Positions 14,622-24,196 of a stretch of 25,388 nucleotides of DNA are shown here, one piece after another (position 1 is the stretch's first letter; each line of letters starts with the position of its first letter). Origin of the DNA: a virus. The notes below the pieces were generated by a model. It did not search any database. It saw only the letters and a list, made by a program, of their open reading frames with translations, and was not told the origin of the DNA. The position numbers and the translations under genes are program-made. The stretch spans positions 1 through 25,388 of the IMG/VR virus record IMGVR_UViG_3300022074_000345; one strand, written 5' to 3'.

Positions 14622-15073
14622 TAGAATAACCTCGCATACATATATTGATCAGAACCATCAAAACCAAATTTTCTCATTAAACCTTCTTCTTCCAATCCTA
14701 ACCATTTAGCAAATTTTAAACCTGTTGTATAGTTTGCTCTTACAGCACTTTGAACTCTATTGATATTATTTTCTTTAGCAATTCGTGCAAAATCTTTCTT
14801 TATTGCTTTTGCAACAGCTATAGGATGATCTAAAGCATCTTTAGTTGCTAGTACCCAACCTTCTGCAACACCATTCCAAATAATTTTCATGCCTGCAGCA
14901 AAGATAGGTTTACCATCAATCATACCTGTAAATGCTAAATTTTCTTGTTCTAAATTCATTGCGTTACCTTCAAACTCCATATCTTTATCCATTAACATAT
15001 GATTCATTTCTTGTTTCATAATGTATGCTCCATGCTCTCCTCTGTACTTTACAATATTGATTATTCTATCCAT
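14621..15073 (-). CDS. gp13-like/GNAT-fold protein
   Basis: A 150-residue protein at the T7 gene 13 position. It has a GNAT acetyltransferase-like layout: a strand around residues 44-60 (LAFTGMIDGKPIFAAG), a helix region (KAIKKDFARIAKENNI), then the typical C-terminal part with NRVQSAVRANYTTGLKFAKW (about 104-123), LGLEEEGLMRKFGFDGSDQY, and an aromatic final strand. Proteins like this in T7-like phages may be inactive GNAT folds used in virion assembly rather than enzymes; I see no clear acetyl-CoA Q/R-x-x-G-x-G/A loop. Its ATG is inside the last codons of the gp12-like gene (8-base overlap) and no Shine-Dalgarno sequence is evident, so coupling is likely. Confidence 0.8.
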   Translation of the reverse strand: MDRIINIVKYRGEHGAYIMKQEMNHMLMDKDMEFEGNAMNLEQENLAFTGMIDGKPIFAAGMKIIWNGVAEGWVLATKDALDHPIAVAKAIKKDFARIAKENNINRVQSAVRANYTTGLKFAKWLGLEEEGLMRKFGFDGSDQYMYARLF

Positions 15074-17093
15074 CGTTTGTTTGAAGTTTAGGATATAATG
15101 ACAATATCGTCAAAGGTAAAGGTTGAGTTTGTCTAACAAATATAAAACCATCTGTTTCATAGTTTCCTCTAAATTCTATTTCTTTGTCTCCAGTAAATAC
15201 ATTGATACCACTATTCATTGCGTTAGCTGAAGATCTAAAAGGTATTCTTTCCATATTAGCTAGATCTGGACCAATCTCCACACCAATACTTTCATAAAGT
15301 CTAGCAGTAATCTCATAGATTCTTTTAGTCTTACTTTGTGATGTACCATTCTGTGCGCCTGCATCTATTCTCATTGTTTGTAATAAAGATGTATAACTTA
15401 ATCCAACTTTAACTTTACTTGCAGCTCTTTCTAAAACTATTGCTCCAGAACTTACAACCTTATCTGGGTGCGTTGCGCCATCTGCTAATACTGAAACTGT
15501 TTGACCTTCAAGATGAGCAAGACCAGAAATATTTGTAACTGCAGATCCATCATAAGATAATTGTGAGTCTAAAAAATTAAATGAAGTATCATCTGTTTCA
15601 TCGAAGTCATATTGATGAATATATTCTACATATCTTTTTGTAGCACCATTGATTGTTCTTTTTATAATAACCCATGTTTGATATTCAGAATCATCTGTAG
15701 GAATTGTAGCAACACTATCACAAACTGAATTACCACTTCCGAATACACCACCAAAAATATGTCTATGCCAGGCAACTACTTGTTGTTCTCTTTGATAAGT
15801 TAAGCCAACTAATTGACCATCGTTTCTTGCGCACCAAATAATTTGATTAGGTTCTTGTTGATATGATAGTTGTTTAAATCCACCTTCAGAAATATGCTCG
15901 GCAAGGATAGTTAGATCTGGAGCCACATAACCATCAACATCAAAGTTGTAAGCTAGTTCTCTTAACTTTCTTCTTGCTCTTTGTAAAAATAAAGTTGCGT
16001 TACCAACAGCTAGAGCATCTACATTTGCAGCTCCATTGTTAGATTGTTTTTTAATTAATATGTTTGTAGGTGTTATTGCAATATCAGTTCCACCACCACT
16101 AACTGCAAACTCACCCCCTGCAGTACCAATGATTAAAGTTCTTGTAGCTGTCATAAATCTAATTGCGTTTACTTGGTTTGATGCAATTGTATAAATAATA
16201 GAATCATCATCTGCCACAACTCCATGATAATTATCATCCATGTTTTCATAATCACCAGACTTTGAAAAAAATAATGTTTGTGGTTGAGATAAAGTTGCTG
16301 CAAATACTAATCTTTGTTCAAAGAAAGTTACGCAAGAAGGATGACCAGTAGTAGAACTAAAAGATCCTAATGCAAAATCAGTTGTAGCTGAACCATTTGA
16401 TATGTCTGATATGACTTCCATATTAACAACAGTTGATGATGTGTATCCTGTAATTTTTACATGACCATCAAGCATATGAACTAATCTTCCAACATCAGTT
16501 GACAACCAACCTTGATTAGAATTAACTCCAGTAGTTGATGATAAAGTTAATGTACCTGTTTGACCTGCATTAGTATGTGATGCTGTCATAGTTGTTGTTT
16601 CAATATTGTGATCCATAAATGGACCATTCGTAAATTCAACACTTGTTAGTGTCCAGGATGTGTGACCTGTTCTAGCTAATTTTTTTACTGGATGATTGGG
16701 GTGACATAAATACATAACATCAGCACTTTGTGCATATTTAATATCAAATAATTCTGATTCTAAATAAGGTGAAGATATTTCGTAAGCTGAACCACCAGAT
16801 AATATTTGACCATTATCTTTATAAAATCTTATGTACTGTTCACCAAACTCTAACATATAAGTTTGTGTTGTACTAAACTCAAAAGGAATTAATCTTGTTT
16901 CTTTAGAACTATCTTTTACTTCTGCTACAAACTGTGAGCCAGATCTTCTTGCTGCACTTCCATGAGGATAGACAATCATGTTTTCTAAAGTCTTACATCC
17001 TGTAGGGTATTTTTGTAGATCGTTTCTACCATCTAGCCTTGGTGATAATTCTCCACCTGTGAAGTTCGTTAATTGAACAGCAACTCTAGCCAT
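15066..17093 (-). CDS. Tail tubular protein B (gp12-like, tail stabilisation)
   Basis: A 675-residue beta-rich protein with the N-terminus typical of podovirus tail tube B/stabilisation proteins: NFTGGELSPRLDGRNDLQKY, CKTLENMIVYPHGSAARRSG, TRLIPFEFSTTQTYMLEFGE, YIRFYKDNGQI. The T7 protein is longer (about 794 residues) and phage tail tubular proteins of 650-800 residues are usual. Later segments (HPSCVTFFEQRLVFAAT, QPQTLFFSKSGDYENM, LYPKLQTNDG) fit the same family. It forms the tail nozzle below the gp11-like ring. The ATG follows the TAA of the gp11-like gene by three bases with AAGG about eleven bases upstream. Confidence 0.93.
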   Translation of the reverse strand: MARVAVQLTNFTGGELSPRLDGRNDLQKYPTGCKTLENMIVYPHGSAARRSGSQFVAEVKDSSKETRLIPFEFSTTQTYMLEFGEQYIRFYKDNGQILSGGSAYEISSPYLESELFDIKYAQSADVMYLCHPNHPVKKLARTGHTSWTLTSVEFTNGPFMDHNIETTTMTASHTNAGQTGTLTLSSTTGVNSNQGWLSTDVGRLVHMLDGHVKITGYTSSTVVNMEVISDISNGSATTDFALGSFSSTTGHPSCVTFFEQRLVFAATLSQPQTLFFSKSGDYENMDDNYHGVVADDDSIIYTIASNQVNAIRFMTATRTLIIGTAGGEFAVSGGGTDIAITPTNILIKKQSNNGAANVDALAVGNATLFLQRARRKLRELAYNFDVDGYVAPDLTILAEHISEGGFKQLSYQQEPNQIIWCARNDGQLVGLTYQREQQVVAWHRHIFGGVFGSGNSVCDSVATIPTDDSEYQTWVIIKRTINGATKRYVEYIHQYDFDETDDTSFNFLDSQLSYDGSAVTNISGLAHLEGQTVSVLADGATHPDKVVSSGAIVLERAASKVKVGLSYTSLLQTMRIDAGAQNGTSQSKTKRIYEITARLYESIGVEIGPDLANMERIPFRSSANAMNSGINVFTGDKEIEFRGNYETDGFIFVRQTQPLPLTILSLYPKLQTNDG

Positions 17094-17096
17094 AGG

Positions 17097-17678
17097 TTAG
17101 TACCTTGCGTTTATAAAAGATGAAGATCCAATAACATCTGATTGACCATTGTCTGGATTAGTATTTTGACCTTCTGTAGCATCTACAAATCTTGCTTCTC
17201 TTAATTTGTCTTGAAATAAATTATACATATTAGAAGCCGTAGGATTAGATGAAGTTACTGCATAAGCAATGTCTGCTGCTAGTGATGCAGAAATTGTTTC
17301 TCTTAATAGTTCATCATATTGATTAGCATCTGTTACTCTTGAAACATATTGAATTTTTACTGTTCCATGGTTTGCTAAAATTTTTCTACCTTCTACTTTA
17401 AAATCATAATCGTAATTTAATATTCCAAGAACTCTCAAACAATCTGCAGGTAAAGTAAATTGATAACTAAAACCCCATGAAGGAGTTTCTGTATCTCTTG
17501 CTAGTTCAACTCTTTTAATTAAACAATTCCAGGGATGAGATCTAAATAAACTATCTCTAACTTGTGTGTATCTTGCGTTGCAAAGTCTTGCGTTCTTTGA
17601 ATCTTCTGTAAGTGATAATATTGTCGATGCACCAAGTTGGTTTAATGCTCCATTACAAATGTCTACTACTGATGCCAT
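17097..17678 (-). CDS. Tail tubular protein A (gp11-like)
   Basis: A 193-residue protein in the T7 gene 11 position. The N-terminus is the family's hallmark: VVDICNGALNQLGASTILSL, EDSKNARLCNARYTQVRDSL, RSHPWNCLIKRVELAR, then the PADCLRVLGI strand. It forms the adaptor ring between portal and tail nozzle. Length matches the family (about 190-200). An AAGGAAG ribosome site precedes the ATG at 17678, and the gene starts just after the stop of the 66-aa gene. It is followed three bases later by the gp12-like gene. Confidence 0.94.
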   Translation of the reverse strand: MASVVDICNGALNQLGASTILSLTEDSKNARLCNARYTQVRDSLFRSHPWNCLIKRVELARDTETPSWGFSYQFTLPADCLRVLGILNYDYDFKVEGRKILANHGTVKIQYVSRVTDANQYDELLRETISASLAADIAYAVTSSNPTASNMYNLFQDKLREARFVDATEGQNTNPDNGQSDVIGSSSFINARY

Positions 17679-20169: not shown

Positions 20170-21795
20170 CTACTCAACATCTGCATTAGCTACTGCTTGC
20201 GCTTCTTCTGGCAATGCTTTTGCTAATGGTGCTACTTTTCCTCCTGCTTCTGCTAATTGTTGTACTTGTTGCATCTGTTGCATTTGTTCTTGTTGTTGTG
20301 CTTGCGCCTGTCTTTCTGCATCTAATTCAGATTGTGGTTTTAATATTTTTTGAGGTACACCAACAATGCTAGTTAGATGTCTAACTAATTTATCCATATT
20401 GATATGATCAAATACTGGAGCAACATTTGATAAGCTACCCATAATTTCTATTGCTCTCATGATAGATGAAAGTTCTGTAGATTTTTGTGCTTTAGCTAAT
20501 GGTGATACATATTCAATCTCAATGTCTTGACCAGATAAAAAGTCTGGTGCTTGTGCAAATAAATTTCTTCTCATTAAAATTGCAAATGCTCTATCGATTA
20601 ATGGTTTTAATAATTCAGATTGAAGTCTACCAAGAACTGGTCCAAGCAATCTCATCTTCTCTTCGTTTCTTTGTATAACTTCTGTTGCCGTCATTTGTGG
20701 ACCATCTTGCATCATTAATTGATTTACATAGAAAGCATTTCTAATTGAGTTTCTTCTTTGCTCTTCCATGTTTAAACCTAGTGTATTGTTTGCACCAATG
20801 TTTAGAGGTTCAATTCTATCTCTAGTTCCTGCTCTGTAAAAATTTAAACCACCAGGTACTGTTCTTACAGGTAACATAAAACCATCATCTGGAACAAGTA
20901 AAGGTGGATCAACTTGTTTCTGCGCAGACTTGATTATAGTTTTTGACATTTCATTTAGCATCTTAACATCTGGCAAAGCTGTCATTGCAGGAGATCTACC
21001 ATAGATTTCGTGTGATGCTTTTAAGTATCTAGGTACTACAAAAGGAAACTCTTTAAATCCAGAAACAGATAATTCATCACCACTATCTGCATCCATGTAA
21101 ATAGATTCAAAAGGCATATTTTCTTTATCTTGTTTTGCAGGATTAAAATCTGATCTAGGATAAACTGCGTGAAGTATATCTACTTCTTCGTAAGGATCCT
21201 TCTTTGCTGTAACTGCAATGTGAGTTGATACATTACCAAACTTTTGTATTGCAGCTCTTGCAGATATTCTAAACTTTCTAAATACTGTATCGATTCTTCC
21301 TTTATCATTTTCTGAAATATAAATTTCATTAATGTGTCTTGTAGAAAATTTTAAATTATCTTCATCATCTTCTTCTATAAACATTGCAGCAGTTCCAAAT
21401 GTAATTAGATCATGATACAATTCAAAAATTTCTTGTTGGAAGTTTGATTGATTGAATGCAGAGTACATAACTTCAGTAGCAGATTCTAACCATGCTTTAG
21501 CTTCATCTTCTCCTTCCATTCCTTGATCTTTAAATTTTAAAGAGAACCAAGGTGTTGATGGATTAGTTAGCATACCATGAAGTGATGCTGATAATAGTTC
21601 TACTGATTGTAATGGTGAACCATCAAAAATAAGTTCTGTTCTTTTATCACCTTTAGATCTTGACTTTGTTACATCTGCTTTTCTTGGTTGCATATAGTCT
21701 GCAACTTCTTGCCAATGACTTTCCCAATTTTGTCTTTGAGTTTTTAGTCTGTCAAATCTTGATAATAAAATTTTTGCTTTTTCTGATTGTGCCAT
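20170..21795 (-). CDS. Portal / head-tail connecting protein
   Basis: A 541-residue protein, the usual size for the Head-tail_con family of T7-like phages (T7 gp8). The N-terminus shows NWESHWQEVADYMQPRK (about 22-39), RTELIFDGSPLQSVELLSAS and LHGMLTNPSTPWFSLKF (about 73-89). A central region with DPPLLVPDDGFM (about 295-306) and MTATEVIQRNEEKMRLLG (about 368-385) and the long helices after it match the stem and crown of portal proteins. The C-terminus is Gln-rich (about 490-520) and ends in an Ala/Val/Asp tail. Twelve copies would form the DNA entry ring that works with the terminase. Its ATG follows the 244-aa gene's stop by one base; a weak AGGA is upstream. Confidence 0.96.
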   Translation of the reverse strand: MAQSEKAKILLSRFDRLKTQRQNWESHWQEVADYMQPRKADVTKSRSKGDKRTELIFDGSPLQSVELLSASLHGMLTNPSTPWFSLKFKDQGMEGEDEAKAWLESATEVMYSAFNQSNFQQEIFELYHDLITFGTAAMFIEEDDEDNLKFSTRHINEIYISENDKGRIDTVFRKFRISARAAIQKFGNVSTHIAVTAKKDPYEEVDILHAVYPRSDFNPAKQDKENMPFESIYMDADSGDELSVSGFKEFPFVVPRYLKASHEIYGRSPAMTALPDVKMLNEMSKTIIKSAQKQVDPPLLVPDDGFMLPVRTVPGGLNFYRAGTRDRIEPLNIGANNTLGLNMEEQRRNSIRNAFYVNQLMMQDGPQMTATEVIQRNEEKMRLLGPVLGRLQSELLKPLIDRAFAILMRRNLFAQAPDFLSGQDIEIEYVSPLAKAQKSTELSSIMRAIEIMGSLSNVAPVFDHINMDKLVRHLTSIVGVPQKILKPQSELDAERQAQAQQQEQMQQMQQVQQLAEAGGKVAPLAKALPEEAQAVANADVE

Positions 21796-21796
21796 A

Positions 21797-22531
21797 TTAC
21801 ATTCCTAATAAACTTGGTTTACCTAAAGTCAAGCCACCAGTTGCGCCAGTAACTCCTGTCATGATTGTTGGTGATCTTCCTTTTGCTTTAACTCTTCTTT
21901 TTTTTAATTCAATACTATCTTCTGCTTGTGCTGCTTTGCTTTGTGAAACTTCTGCAGTAGTTGGTGTTGTTGTAAGTAAAGTTCTTCCACCAATATTTTT
22001 TTCAACTATGTATGATCCACTACCTTCATCACGATTATTAATTGTTCTTCCCATTGCATCAACTGTACCAGATCCTCTTCCTTGCATATAACCTTTATAA
22101 TCATCTATAGATGCACCATAAAATCCACCACCTGGTTTTGCTTTTCCAATAACATTTCTTTCATAGTAAGATTTATTTACTTCAAATCCTTTTTTACCTA
22201 AACCTGTAATATGTAAACCTTGAGCAAGAGGTGAAAATCTTGCTAAACCTGTAGGTGGTTGATATGAATAATCTTTAAATGCTTGAGCATCTTTTTTTTC
22301 TTTAGCAACTTTTAATGCTAGTTCATTTCTTCTTTTTGTTGCAGCAGAAACTTTTGTTGTTGTATAAGTTGTAGTTCTATAATTTTCTCTATTATTAGTT
22401 CCACCCCCACCATTAAATGATGTTGATGTTTTTTTTGCTCCACTATTACCAGAAGAAAAAGCATGAGATGTACTATAGCTTTCTTTTTTATTAGATGACG
22501 CACCTATTGTTGAATAGTCTCTTCCTGCCAT
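21797..22531 (-). CDS. Protein of unknown function with GR..TIMTG...LLG C-terminus, 244 aa
   Basis: A 244-residue, basic, Ser/Thr/Gly-rich protein between terminase and portal genes. The N-terminal half is low complexity (Ser, Thr, Asn, Gly) and probably disordered; the middle has GLARFSPLAQGLHITGLGKKG and a GGFYGASIDDYKGYMQGRG stretch. The C-terminus (RRVKAKGRSPTIMTGVTG, then GLTLGKPSLLGM) shares a motif with the 73-aa protein two genes upstream: G-R-x-x-T-I-L/M-T-G near the end and K-x-L-L-G as the last residues. The ATG directly precedes the 55-aa stop (no gap). A structural or packaging-accessory role is suggested by neighbours only. Confidence 0.7.
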   Translation of the reverse strand: MAGRDYSTIGASSNKKESYSTSHAFSSGNSGAKKTSTSFNGGGGTNNRENYRTTTYTTTKVSAATKRRNELALKVAKEKKDAQAFKDYSYQPPTGLARFSPLAQGLHITGLGKKGFEVNKSYYERNVIGKAKPGGGFYGASIDDYKGYMQGRGSGTVDAMGRTINNRDEGSGSYIVEKNIGGRTLLTTTPTTAEVSQSKAAQAEDSIELKKRRVKAKGRSPTIMTGVTGATGGLTLGKPSLLGM

Positions 22532-22699
22532 TTACTTTCCGAAAGTTAAAGATGATTTAGTATCAGATTTAGTTTCAGATTTAGATTCTCTGTTTACTGC
22601 TATACCATTTTGTAAATCATTCATGTTATTAAATTTTGGTTCTTCTTTCTTTGCAGTAGGTTTCATTTTCTTGATAGCTTTTTTAATTTTATCTAACAT
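22532..22699 (-). CDS. Short Lys/Ser-rich protein, 55 aa
   Basis: A 55-codon frame starting at ATG 22699 with an excellent AGGAGA ribosome site seven bases upstream, ending at 22532 directly against the start of the 244-aa gene. The N-terminal half is a basic helix (MLDKIKKAIKKMKPTAKK); the C-terminal half is a four-residue repeat of the type S-E/D-T-K, encoded by three tandem 12-base repeats. No family is recognised. The good ribosome site, the exact fit between its neighbours and the conserved reading direction make it a likely real gene. It is shorter than common size cut-offs and could be missed. Confidence 0.7.
   Translation of the reverse strand: MLDKIKKAIKKMKPTAKKEEPKFNNMNDLQNGIAVNRESKSETKSDTKSSLTFGK
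22555..22588 (-). repeat. Tandem 12-base repeat in the 55-aa gene
   Basis: On the plus strand ATTTAGTATCAG, ATTTAGTTTCAG and ATTTAGATTC follow each other with a 12-base period. They encode the S-E/D-T-K repeats of the short protein. Repeat number could vary between relatives. Confidence 0.75.
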
Positions 22700-22700
22700 A

Positions 22701-22922
22701 TTAATCTCCTAATAAAGTTTTTAGTTTTTCTTCCTTATCTTCCTGTATACCTAATGGTCCAGTAAGTATTGTAGACTTTCTACCTCTTCTTCTTCTTTCA
22801 ATTGCAGCTTGTTCCTTGTCAATCTTTGCTTGTTCCTCTGGAGAAATTTCTGGCTCTGGTGGCTCAACAGGAGCTGGAGGTGGTGGCAATGCTGGCATTT
22901 TTGGTTTAAATATTGAACCCAT
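22701..22922 (-). CDS. Small Pro-rich protein with GR.STILTG...LLG C-terminus, 73 aa
   Basis: A 73-residue protein. The first half is Pro/Glu-rich (PALPPPPAPVEPPEPE), then a charged helix (SPEEQAKIDKEQAAIERR), and a basic C-terminal motif RRRGRKSTILTGPLG followed by EKLKTLLGD. This GRxSTILTGxxG...LLG motif is familiar in small proteins encoded next to terminase or portal genes of podoviruses, where function is unknown. The 244-aa protein downstream has the same motif. It follows the terminase gene by two bases with an AGGA site upstream. A disordered, Pro-rich region and a basic tail suggest a binding or tether protein; that is inference. Confidence 0.8.
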   Translation of the reverse strand: MGSIFKPKMPALPPPPAPVEPPEPEISPEEQAKIDKEQAAIERRRRGRKSTILTGPLGIQEDKEEKLKTLLGD

Positions 22923-22924
22923 AA

Positions 22925-24196
22925 TTATATAATCCTATAGTTATTATCTGCTACACTTTGTGGCGCAGTTTGTCTAGTATTTAATTCTTGTAAACCTACT
23001 GCTAGATACCTCATCGCATCGCAAGCATGACTACTCCAATCATGCACAGGTTTAGATCTAAACATTCTTGATTTGTCTACATACTTCCTGTGGTAATGTC
23101 TTAACGCATCTATTAACTTTTTGCAATGGTCTGTATCAAACCAACATCTATTCAACAACATTGTTACTGCATGAATACCTTCTTCTACTGGTAGCTTCGG
23201 TACTACCTTAAACCTAACTCCTAACTGATATGCAATCTCTCTTCTGGTTTTGCCATTGCCGAACTCTTGTACATCAATGTCGTGTGGAGCAAAGTGATCT
23301 TTGTAGATGTAAGGTTTTTCGTTTAGCATCTGAATATAGTGAGGTAAGCCATGACCTCTTTCTTCATGGTAATCTATTATCTGTACTGCCGTACCTTTTT
23401 GTTGAAAAAATATAATACTACTGTGGTCTGCGACACCGAGATCCCAAGCAGTTGAGACAGGCAAAGTAGGATCGTAGGGAACTCTAGCTAGTTGTTTCTT
23501 ATCATCTAGTTTAGATATTTCTTCTCCATAGATTGCACCTTCTATATTGGCTATCCAATCGCACTCAAATTCTTGCAGGTACTTCTTCTCACCCATAACT
23601 TCTTTTGCTTTATCTAACTCTTCCTGGTCAACTATCTTTGTTTCACTTGCTTTAGCTTTGTAGTTAAACCAATCTTCTGCACCATTTGCGTGTTGGTATA
23701 GATCATAGAAGTTATTATTCATTCCTGCAGGTGTACCAATAAAGACACAGTAGCCTTTACGATCTGATAGAGCTGGTCTAATTATCTCTGCAAATAGCTT
23801 TCCATCTATGTTTGCGTACTCATCTATAACGCAGCCATCCAGGTAGATACCTCTCAATCCATCAGAGTTTTCTGCTCCCAGTAATGTAATCCTAGCACCA
23901 TTTGGCAGATCTACTCTTAATTCTGTTTCATTGAACTTTGTTGATGGGATTTTATCAGTAAACTGTTTCATGTAATCCCAAGCAATGCTTTTAGCTTGCT
24001 TGAATGTAGGAGCTATGTATGCAAATCTTGGGTTCTTATGTGGACACATTAATGCAGATTTGATTAAATGGTTGATCATGCATACTGTTTTACCGAACCT
24101 TCTGTGGCAAACTAGCACACTCCATCTATGATTGTTAATCTGTTTATGTAAATATGCTTGATGCTTCCTTGGTGTGTAAGGTATTTTAATATTCAT
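22925..24196 (-). CDS. terL: Terminase large subunit (DNA packaging ATPase and nuclease)
   Basis: A 423-residue protein with the complete motor and nuclease signature. Walker A-like H-R-R-F-G-K-T-V is at 31-38; the Q-like region PTFKQAK at 63-69; Walker B VIDEY at 123-127; the coupling motif GTPAG at 155-159. The C-terminal RNase H-like nuclease has WDLGVADHS (251-259; D252 and D257), D306/D308 and ACDAMRYLAV (391-400; D393). It is at the short end of the usual range (T7 gp19 is about 586 residues). It cuts and pumps phage DNA through the portal. The start overlaps the 63-aa gene's stop (TAATG). No small subunit of known type is visible in the window. Confidence 0.97.
   Translation of the reverse strand: MNIKIPYTPRKHQAYLHKQINNHRWSVLVCHRRFGKTVCMINHLIKSALMCPHKNPRFAYIAPTFKQAKSIAWDYMKQFTDKIPSTKFNETELRVDLPNGARITLLGAENSDGLRGIYLDGCVIDEYANIDGKLFAEIIRPALSDRKGYCVFIGTPAGMNNNFYDLYQHANGAEDWFNYKAKASETKIVDQEELDKAKEVMGEKKYLQEFECDWIANIEGAIYGEEISKLDDKKQLARVPYDPTLPVSTAWDLGVADHSSIIFFQQKGTAVQIIDYHEERGHGLPHYIQMLNEKPYIYKDHFAPHDIDVQEFGNGKTRREIAYQLGVRFKVVPKLPVEEGIHAVTMLLNRCWFDTDHCKKLIDALRHYHRKYVDKSRMFRSKPVHDWSSHACDAMRYLAVGLQELNTRQTAPQSVADNNYRII

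Follow-up and report, generated by a model that had tools for sequence, protein, structure and literature searches.

A conserved C-terminal tag on small proteins encoded upstream of podovirus portals, proposed as a docking peptide for the portal-tail ring

Why should two small proteins encoded side by side in one phage genome end in nearly the same peptide? The question is raised by proteins A and B of the window analysed here, a virus record of 25,388 bases studied at its full length. Its gene order matches that of HTVC010P-type pelagiphages. Pelagiphages infect the most abundant marine bacteria. In the window, the order is terminase large subunit (TerL), A (73 aa), C (55 aa), B (244 aa), portal, scaffold/protease-like protein and capsid (Table 1), and the gene at 19070-19942 matches the protease family phrog_458. 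The closest named record is HTVC024P, with an identity of 98.6% for A and of 65.4% for B over 96% of the B length. Comparison with HTVC024P also suggests that tail tubular proteins A and B follow the capsid. The former was assigned because the gene has the position and the 582-base length of HTVC024P gp51, 'putative tail tubular A', and the latter because it has the position and the 2028-base length of gp50, 'putative tail tubular B'.

Table 1 Features of the window related to the C-terminal tag
Feature	Position	Strand	Basis
Terminase large subunit, directly upstream of A	22925..24196	-	phrog_2 and PF03237 matches
Protein A, 73 aa	22701..22922	-	ORF; phrog_831 E 9.3e-14 (3.6e-15 on record); model
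Protein A make-up: conserved N-terminus rich in Pro, then a predicted helix, an Arg-rich patch and the tag at the C-terminus	22701..22922	-	
A conserved N-terminal KPKMPALPP, residues 6-14	22881..22907	-	P7, K8, P10, L12 and P13 invariant in 20 A proteins
A C-terminal tag, residues 47-73, GRKSTILTGPLG...KTLLGD	22704..22784	-	Sequence; invariant and near-invariant columns
Lys-rich protein C (55 aa), lying between A and B, with a conserved end of its own, SSLTFGK	22532..22699	-	ORF
Protein B, 244 aa, portal-proximal paralog with variable N-terminal extension	21797..22531	-	ORF; invariants mostly in last 55 residues
B module homologous to phrog_831, residues 189-243	21803..21967	-	E 6.9e-6 (2.3e-8 on record)
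B C-terminal tag, residues 218-244, GRSPTIMTGVTG...KPSLLGM	21800..21880	-	Sequence; motif HMM
Portal protein PF12236, directly downstream of B	20170..21795	-	E 1.4e-159
Putative tail tubular protein A / adaptor, candidate docking partner	17097..17678	-	Position and length
Putative tail tubular protein B / nozzle, candidate docking partner	15066..17093	-	Position and length

The C-terminal ends read ...GRKSTILTGPLGIQEDKEEKLKTLLGD in A and ...GRSPTIMTGVTGATGGLTLGKPSLLGM in B, and the distance from the core threonine to the C-terminus is 23 residues in each. A sequence-only reading of the locus had described the shared end as GR..TI(L/M)TG followed by K-x-L-L-G. The first half is indeed present in both proteins; the second is inexact, with KTLLG in A and KPSLLG in B. 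The two proteins had also been called otherwise unlike, which proved wrong. Both match phrog_831, a family with no assigned function, A with residues 1-72 (E 9.3e-14) and B with residues 189-243 (E 6.9e-6), and are therefore homologous over their last ~55 residues. Clean family profiles, made from the C-terminal 56 residues with rows assigned by gene order to A (60) or B (59), align in hhalign over 55 columns with a probability of 98.4%, against 0.6% for the reversed control and at most 2.8% for 20 column shuffles. Among the 351 pairs of C-terminal 30-residue ends from 27 window genes, A/B came top with a score of 38, and the next pair scored 30. Shuffling the last 30 residues of B reached the A/B score in 4 of 5000 trials, and shuffling the whole of B reached the full-length A/B score in 2 of 3000. 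A profile made from six non-pelagiphage proteins recovers A (E 1.2e-5) and B (E 2.8e-4), and no other member of the 156-ORF window set is among its eight best matches. With the motif HMM, A scores 53.2 bits and B 45.4 bits, both being among its 14 seeds. To judge from these sequence comparisons, A and B go back to an old duplication of a single small protein of the phrog_831 superfamily, encoded close to the portal and mostly unfolded.

The tag itself has the consensus G-R-x-S-T-(I/M/L)-L-T-G-(P)-x-G ... K-K-T-L-L-G-x, with K-x-(T/S)-L-L-G at the terminus. In phrog_831, it takes the form STxLTG..G...KTLLG at a near-fixed distance from the end, and A and B both keep it at 23 residues. The distance from core to end has a median of 23 residues and a 5-95% range of 21-26 in 175 of 207 representatives, these being the ones with the core 12-34 residues from the end, the range searched. 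Without any restriction on distance, 293 of 369 profile matches reach precisely to the C-terminal residue. The mean number of Arg and Lys in the 14 residues preceding the core is 3.8, compared with 1.3 in the rest of these proteins. In A, the N-terminal PKMPxLPP is conserved as well. In B, the invariant positions fall mostly within the last 55 residues, and the protein varies elsewhere while the tag is nearly invariant. The copy next to the portal can be as short as 70 aa and as long as 264 aa, which makes the 244-aa form of B an extension. B residues 94-166 (window 22034-22252) form a lineage-specific insert of predicted small helices, with one relative among phage records.

AlphaFold2 predicts one helix in A (residues 28-53), with unconfident ends and a tag of low confidence (blocks of 59, 55 and 61). 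For B, a small helical insert is predicted, and residues 167-244 stay below 50. The low confidence of the tag as a lone chain fits a peptide that takes up its fold on binding to a partner; alone it proves nothing. Against a viral library, the B model gave a single match with E below 0.001, 63% identical. Among solved structures, no related chain was found for A, B, the A and B profiles or the epsilon15-type protein; the best match, ribosomal protein L6 (E 0.02), is unrelated by name.

The spread of the tag was surveyed in loci fetched by their portal, with no use of the motif: 80 pelagiphage, 80 bacterial/archaeal genome, 80 epsilon15-like viral and 80 more distant viral loci. Each set is the best 80 of a longer list and contains many near-copies; crude clustering gave the 207 representatives. 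Every ORF of at least 30 aa in these 320 loci and in 15 phage records (335 loci) was scored with the profile from 14 seeds, at a threshold of 8 chosen after the gap between ORF classes had been seen. The tag is present in 366 of the 3613 ORFs ending at most 2.5 kb upstream of a portal. It occurs in 3 of the 6981 other same-strand ORFs, all three next to portals for which the start was set too far upstream, and in none of the 13704 opposite-strand ORFs of the 335 loci. Away from the portal-upstream stretch, the flanks of the 335 portals hold no score of 8 or more.

Counting loci with more than 1500 nt upstream, at least one tagged ORF lies just upstream of the portal in 234 of 263 (best-80 lists, near-copies included); the 57 of 320 loci with shorter upstream sequence were excluded from this count. 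The remaining 29 have no match at threshold 8. The sequence-only reading had looked to conservation in relatives, and this is borne out: ORFs just upstream of the portal have the motif at the C-terminus or close to it in all 54 of the pelagiphage loci and in 180 of 209 others, again from best-80 lists (genome loci 74/77, epsilon15-like 68/72, more distant viral 38/60). Over all 80 loci of each set, those without a match number 5 (pelagiphage), 5 (genome), 4 (epsilon15-like) and 34 (distant viral). Degenerate ends are often visible by eye in unmatched loci, though not in all. The phage records carry the tag in 10 of 15 cases, several of them seed sources; the records of T7, Vibrio K292, D105, vir555 and Hodr have no match at threshold. 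In the records of the Pelagibacter phages Hodr and Baldr (L095 and L096; OQ414635 and OQ414636), the locus tags seem to have been exchanged. Since the seeds came partly from surveyed loci, profiles were also cross-trained. A six-seed non-pelagiphage profile found 124 upstream ORFs and none elsewhere in the pelagiphage loci (51 of 54 loci). A four-seed pelagiphage profile applied to the other loci found 196 upstream ORFs, no other same-strand ORF and 2 opposite-strand ORFs (170 of 209 loci). The conservation and the cross-trained profiles together fit a common docking partner of the tagged proteins in the neighbourhood of the portal.

The search was also run in the reverse direction. A phrog_831 search of 289 genomes, all from a single class, yielded 24 matches, spread over 23 genomes. 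A PF12236-type portal lies downstream on the same strand within 1.5 kb in 20 of the 23 matches found by phrog_831 alone, two of which (L415 and L429) are tandem copies in one place. L404, L405 and L406 were left out of the 23, as these genomes had been picked because of their portal loci and are not independent. On visual inspection, the three loci without a nearby portal (L410, L411 and L416) resemble prophages that have been rearranged or have decayed, and two of them have a TerL-like end upstream. In 3 of 26 loci (L417, L420 and L425), phrog_831 and the portal were matched and the motif profile was silent. The family is rare in the sample of 369 gammaproteobacterial genomes, with one match, in a genome chosen beforehand.

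Members of the family include epsilon15 gp3 (NP_848211), Carin-1 gp47, BPP-1 bbp22, proteins of Vibrio phage 1.185.O and Limnohabitans phage DC33, and others. The DC33 record (L090, PQ492659) is filed under Inoviridae, yet holds a podovirus-type portal. Overall, the family is found in phages of alpha-, beta- and gammaproteobacteria, and 71 of 75 genome loci with the tag belong to Pseudomonadota by record lineage. The members tested have no credible Pfam, NCBIfam or PDB match, and the proteins examined are labelled hypothetical; in the epsilon15-like record OR757455 the member gene is unannotated. No description of the motif or family was found in the openly licensed literature, as judged by title and the start of the abstract. 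For Carin-1, the portal, connector and nozzle are flagged as seen in its cryo-EM structure and gp47 is unflagged, so its density, if any, was left unassigned. A solved chain of 556 residues, 8ck0, matches the epsilon15-type portal profile and is that of Carin-1.

As for the number of copies, 52 of 54 pelagiphage loci retain two or more tagged ORFs, and most other phages have one. A tree was made from 126 short sequences, with labels taken from gene order. In it, the 60 pelagiphage A rows fall into a single group; the label changes 2 times for A and 4 times for B, against a mean of 42 for shuffled labels. The tree rests on 56 columns, its bootstrap had yet to converge and the placement of several long branches is doubtful. 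As the A rows group apart from B, the duplication looks older than the pelagiphage radiation. The A and B proteins of the freshwater phage ct8d5349 pair together on the tree, which may be an independent duplication or a long-branch artefact. Five pelagiphage loci gave three matches. The third copies in L011 and L070 look real; those in L051 and L072 are long-branch rows and doubtful. In the former two, the third tagged protein lies between A and C (L011:2073-2315, L070:3686-3988; GRSGTVVTSGG...KKTLLG / KKKLLG). An extra small protein at the same place in L019 (4120-4347) ends in SLGKPSLLGA and has no GR..T core. Protein C was found by regular expression in 37 of 57 pelagiphage loci, the expression missing some copies, and HTVC010P has an unannotated copy between A and B.

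Several explanations of the shared end have to be weighed. It could come from a plain recent duplication, that is, only from copying, with no shared site behind it. A and B are homologous, as such an account expects, but the separate grouping of the 60 A rows, on few columns, points to a duplication older than the pelagiphage radiation. Moreover, the tag stayed nearly invariant in B while the rest of the protein varied, and the same tag is kept in single-copy relatives. We find this account very improbable. A general cargo signal, loading any protein that bears it into the head, would explain why the tag is common to two, sometimes three, proteins of one genome. The sequence-only reading had tentatively suggested a signal for loading into the head. 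Such a signal would be expected on several kinds of internal proteins, and the survey speaks against it. Of the 1016 ORFs of at least 30 aa in the window and in the BPP-1 and Carin-1 records, no more than four score, all of them adjacent to a portal; the next best has an E of 0.27, and the portal flanks tell the same beyond the upstream stretch. A general head-loading signal is disfavoured because no other window ORF is tagged and other proteins do without the tag; it would be a surprise if it were true.

Recognition by a phage prohead protease or a host protease, with the tag as a processing or turnover signal, is given only a slim chance. The C-terminal position of the tag and the nearby match to phrog_458 would suit it, as would the degradation of T7 gp6.7 and gp7.3 by host proteases, reported in the excerpted text of PMC11784390. 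However, the scaffold and capsid proteins of the same loci have no tag, and conservation stops no more than one residue short of the end, leaving no variable stretch past a cleavage site. An accessory of DNA packaging is unlikely too, if by no means far-fetched. Here the tag would bind the large terminase or the portal clip, and the finished virion need not contain the protein. The gene lies between TerL and portal in the window, HTVC024P, HTVC010P, Lederberg and ct8d5349, and two of the three portal-less family loci follow a TerL-like end by eye. An accessory of the portal or tail would be expected there just as much, and the positional analogues in T7 are virion proteins according to the excerpt of PMC11784390. 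The protein could nevertheless be absent from the virion and act in packaging or assembly only.

We propose instead, at even chances, that the tag is a C-terminal docking peptide which anchors a small assembly or ejection protein, with its Arg/Lys patch, to the portal-adaptor-nozzle ring. The proposal stems from a layout like that of T7: the proteins are small, encoded upstream of the portal and equipped with a basic patch and a conserved C-terminal end. In T7, as described in the excerpted text of PMC11784390, two small virion proteins, gp6.7 and gp7.3, are encoded upstream of the portal. Twelve gp6.7 surround the portal barrel, with residues 2-15 on it, and link barrel and core. Six gp7.3 are anchored by residues 84-98, a C-terminal loop, to pairs of adjacent nozzle subunits, and K84 and K85 contact the DNA end. 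After ejection, gp6.7 is part of a new channel. One of its ejected-state conformers, modelled as far as residue 59, places a helix where neighbouring nozzle subunits meet (PMC11784390, same excerpt).

In the docking proposal, the last ~30 residues would be the conserved business end, an Arg/Lys cluster followed by the GRxST core and the terminal KxLLG. The tag would dock in a groove repeated around the ring and the basic patch would touch DNA in the channel, leaving protein-specific jobs to the variable N-terminal parts. The family protein might then work like gp7.3, as a nozzle-anchored loop with lysines at the DNA end, and/or like gp6.7, as a portal-barrel clamp that later forms part of the ejected channel. 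With two paralogs, two such roles could share one kind of binding site. An ejection core for such a protein appears to be present, given that T7-like gp14, gp15 and gp16 are reported for Skadi, an HTVC010P-type phage, in the excerpted text of PMC10504331. The strict conservation of the tag, its single genome slot and its spread over phages of alpha-, beta- and gammaproteobacteria suggest that it should serve a core step in building or opening the portal-tail channel. If the docking proposal is true, existing virion maps of epsilon15-type phages, e.g., Carin-1, may already hold the answer. The small portal-adjacent proteins of many podoviruses would gain a role at once, and the two-copy pelagiphages would show one binding site serving two proteins.

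A bolder version, which we think rather improbable, takes the tag as a general podovirus docking peptide for a groove between subunits of the portal-adaptor-nozzle ring, used by the paralogs in turn. B would hold the groove in the virion and leave first. A, bound to the portal barrel by its PKMPxLPP N-terminus, would arrive with the ejected core and take the groove over. In T7, an equivalent relay may operate with sequences that look unrelated: residues 84-98 of gp7.3 lie on two adjacent nozzle subunits in the virion, and residues 51-59 of gp6.7, which hold most of its GRKxLKV string, are built only in the ejected state. For this comparison, the excerpt of PMC11784390 does not tie the gp6.7 helix at the nozzle interface to particular residues.

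The likeness to T7 is one of layout. gp7.3 is small and encoded upstream of the portal like the tag family, and its basic residues are followed by a C-terminal nozzle-anchoring segment (excerpt of PMC11784390). The family has the basic stretch in the same place, ahead of its conserved C-terminal segment (Arg and Lys 3.8 vs 1.3). In contrast to the LLG of the tag family, gp7.3 ends in GGGINI. gp6.7 is likewise small and encoded upstream of the portal, and it starts with Met-Cys and Pro/Lys. Within the first 60 residues, a Met-Cys and Pro/Lys pattern is present in 48 of 140 non-pelagiphage representatives, compared with 109 of 4940 background ORFs; window protein A begins with Met-Gly-Ser. In some T7-like records (L403, L399 and T7, L007), one string, GGKKSL(K/S)V, occurs in both gp6.7 and gp7.3, a case comparable to the tag common to A and B. 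Membership of A and B in the T7 families was rejected: neither has a Pfam match to gp7.3 (PF11653) or gp6.7 (PF17570), and hhalign gave 0.7-1.9% and 0.1-0.6%, respectively. These comparisons were run with reversed and column-shuffled controls, and one shuffled gp6.7 control reached 40%, so the values mean little alone on such short, skewed families. Protein C reached 2.3% against gp7.3. For Peru-2, a preprint (PMC13320782) states in its excerpted text that no gp6.7 or gp7.3 orthologs were found and names small ORFs upstream of the portal as possible analogues.

The PSSP7_023 family of cyanophage P-SSP7 (L341:1905-2186) is, like the tag family, encoded directly upstream of the portal, and has a Pro-rich Met-Cys N-terminus. 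It aligns with the combined tag family at 84.6% in hhalign, against at most 0.7% for reversed and column-shuffled controls. With the sub-families, the values are 51% for A (reversed control 20%) and 10% for the others (reversed 2.5%). Its C-terminus is GGIQ, and the match stops before the tag core. The family is a possible distant relative. The family members epsilon15 gp3, BPP-1 bbp22 and Carin-1 gp47 occupy the same slot as A and B, directly before the portal. bbp22 and gp47 carry the tag, their membership resting on the motif profile, and a protein identical to epsilon15 gp3 in an epsilon15-like phage matches phrog_831 at 6.2e-34. Compared to the other phrog_831 phages, the HTVC010P-type pelagiphages differ in having two copies and a B extended at its N-terminus, to up to 264 aa.
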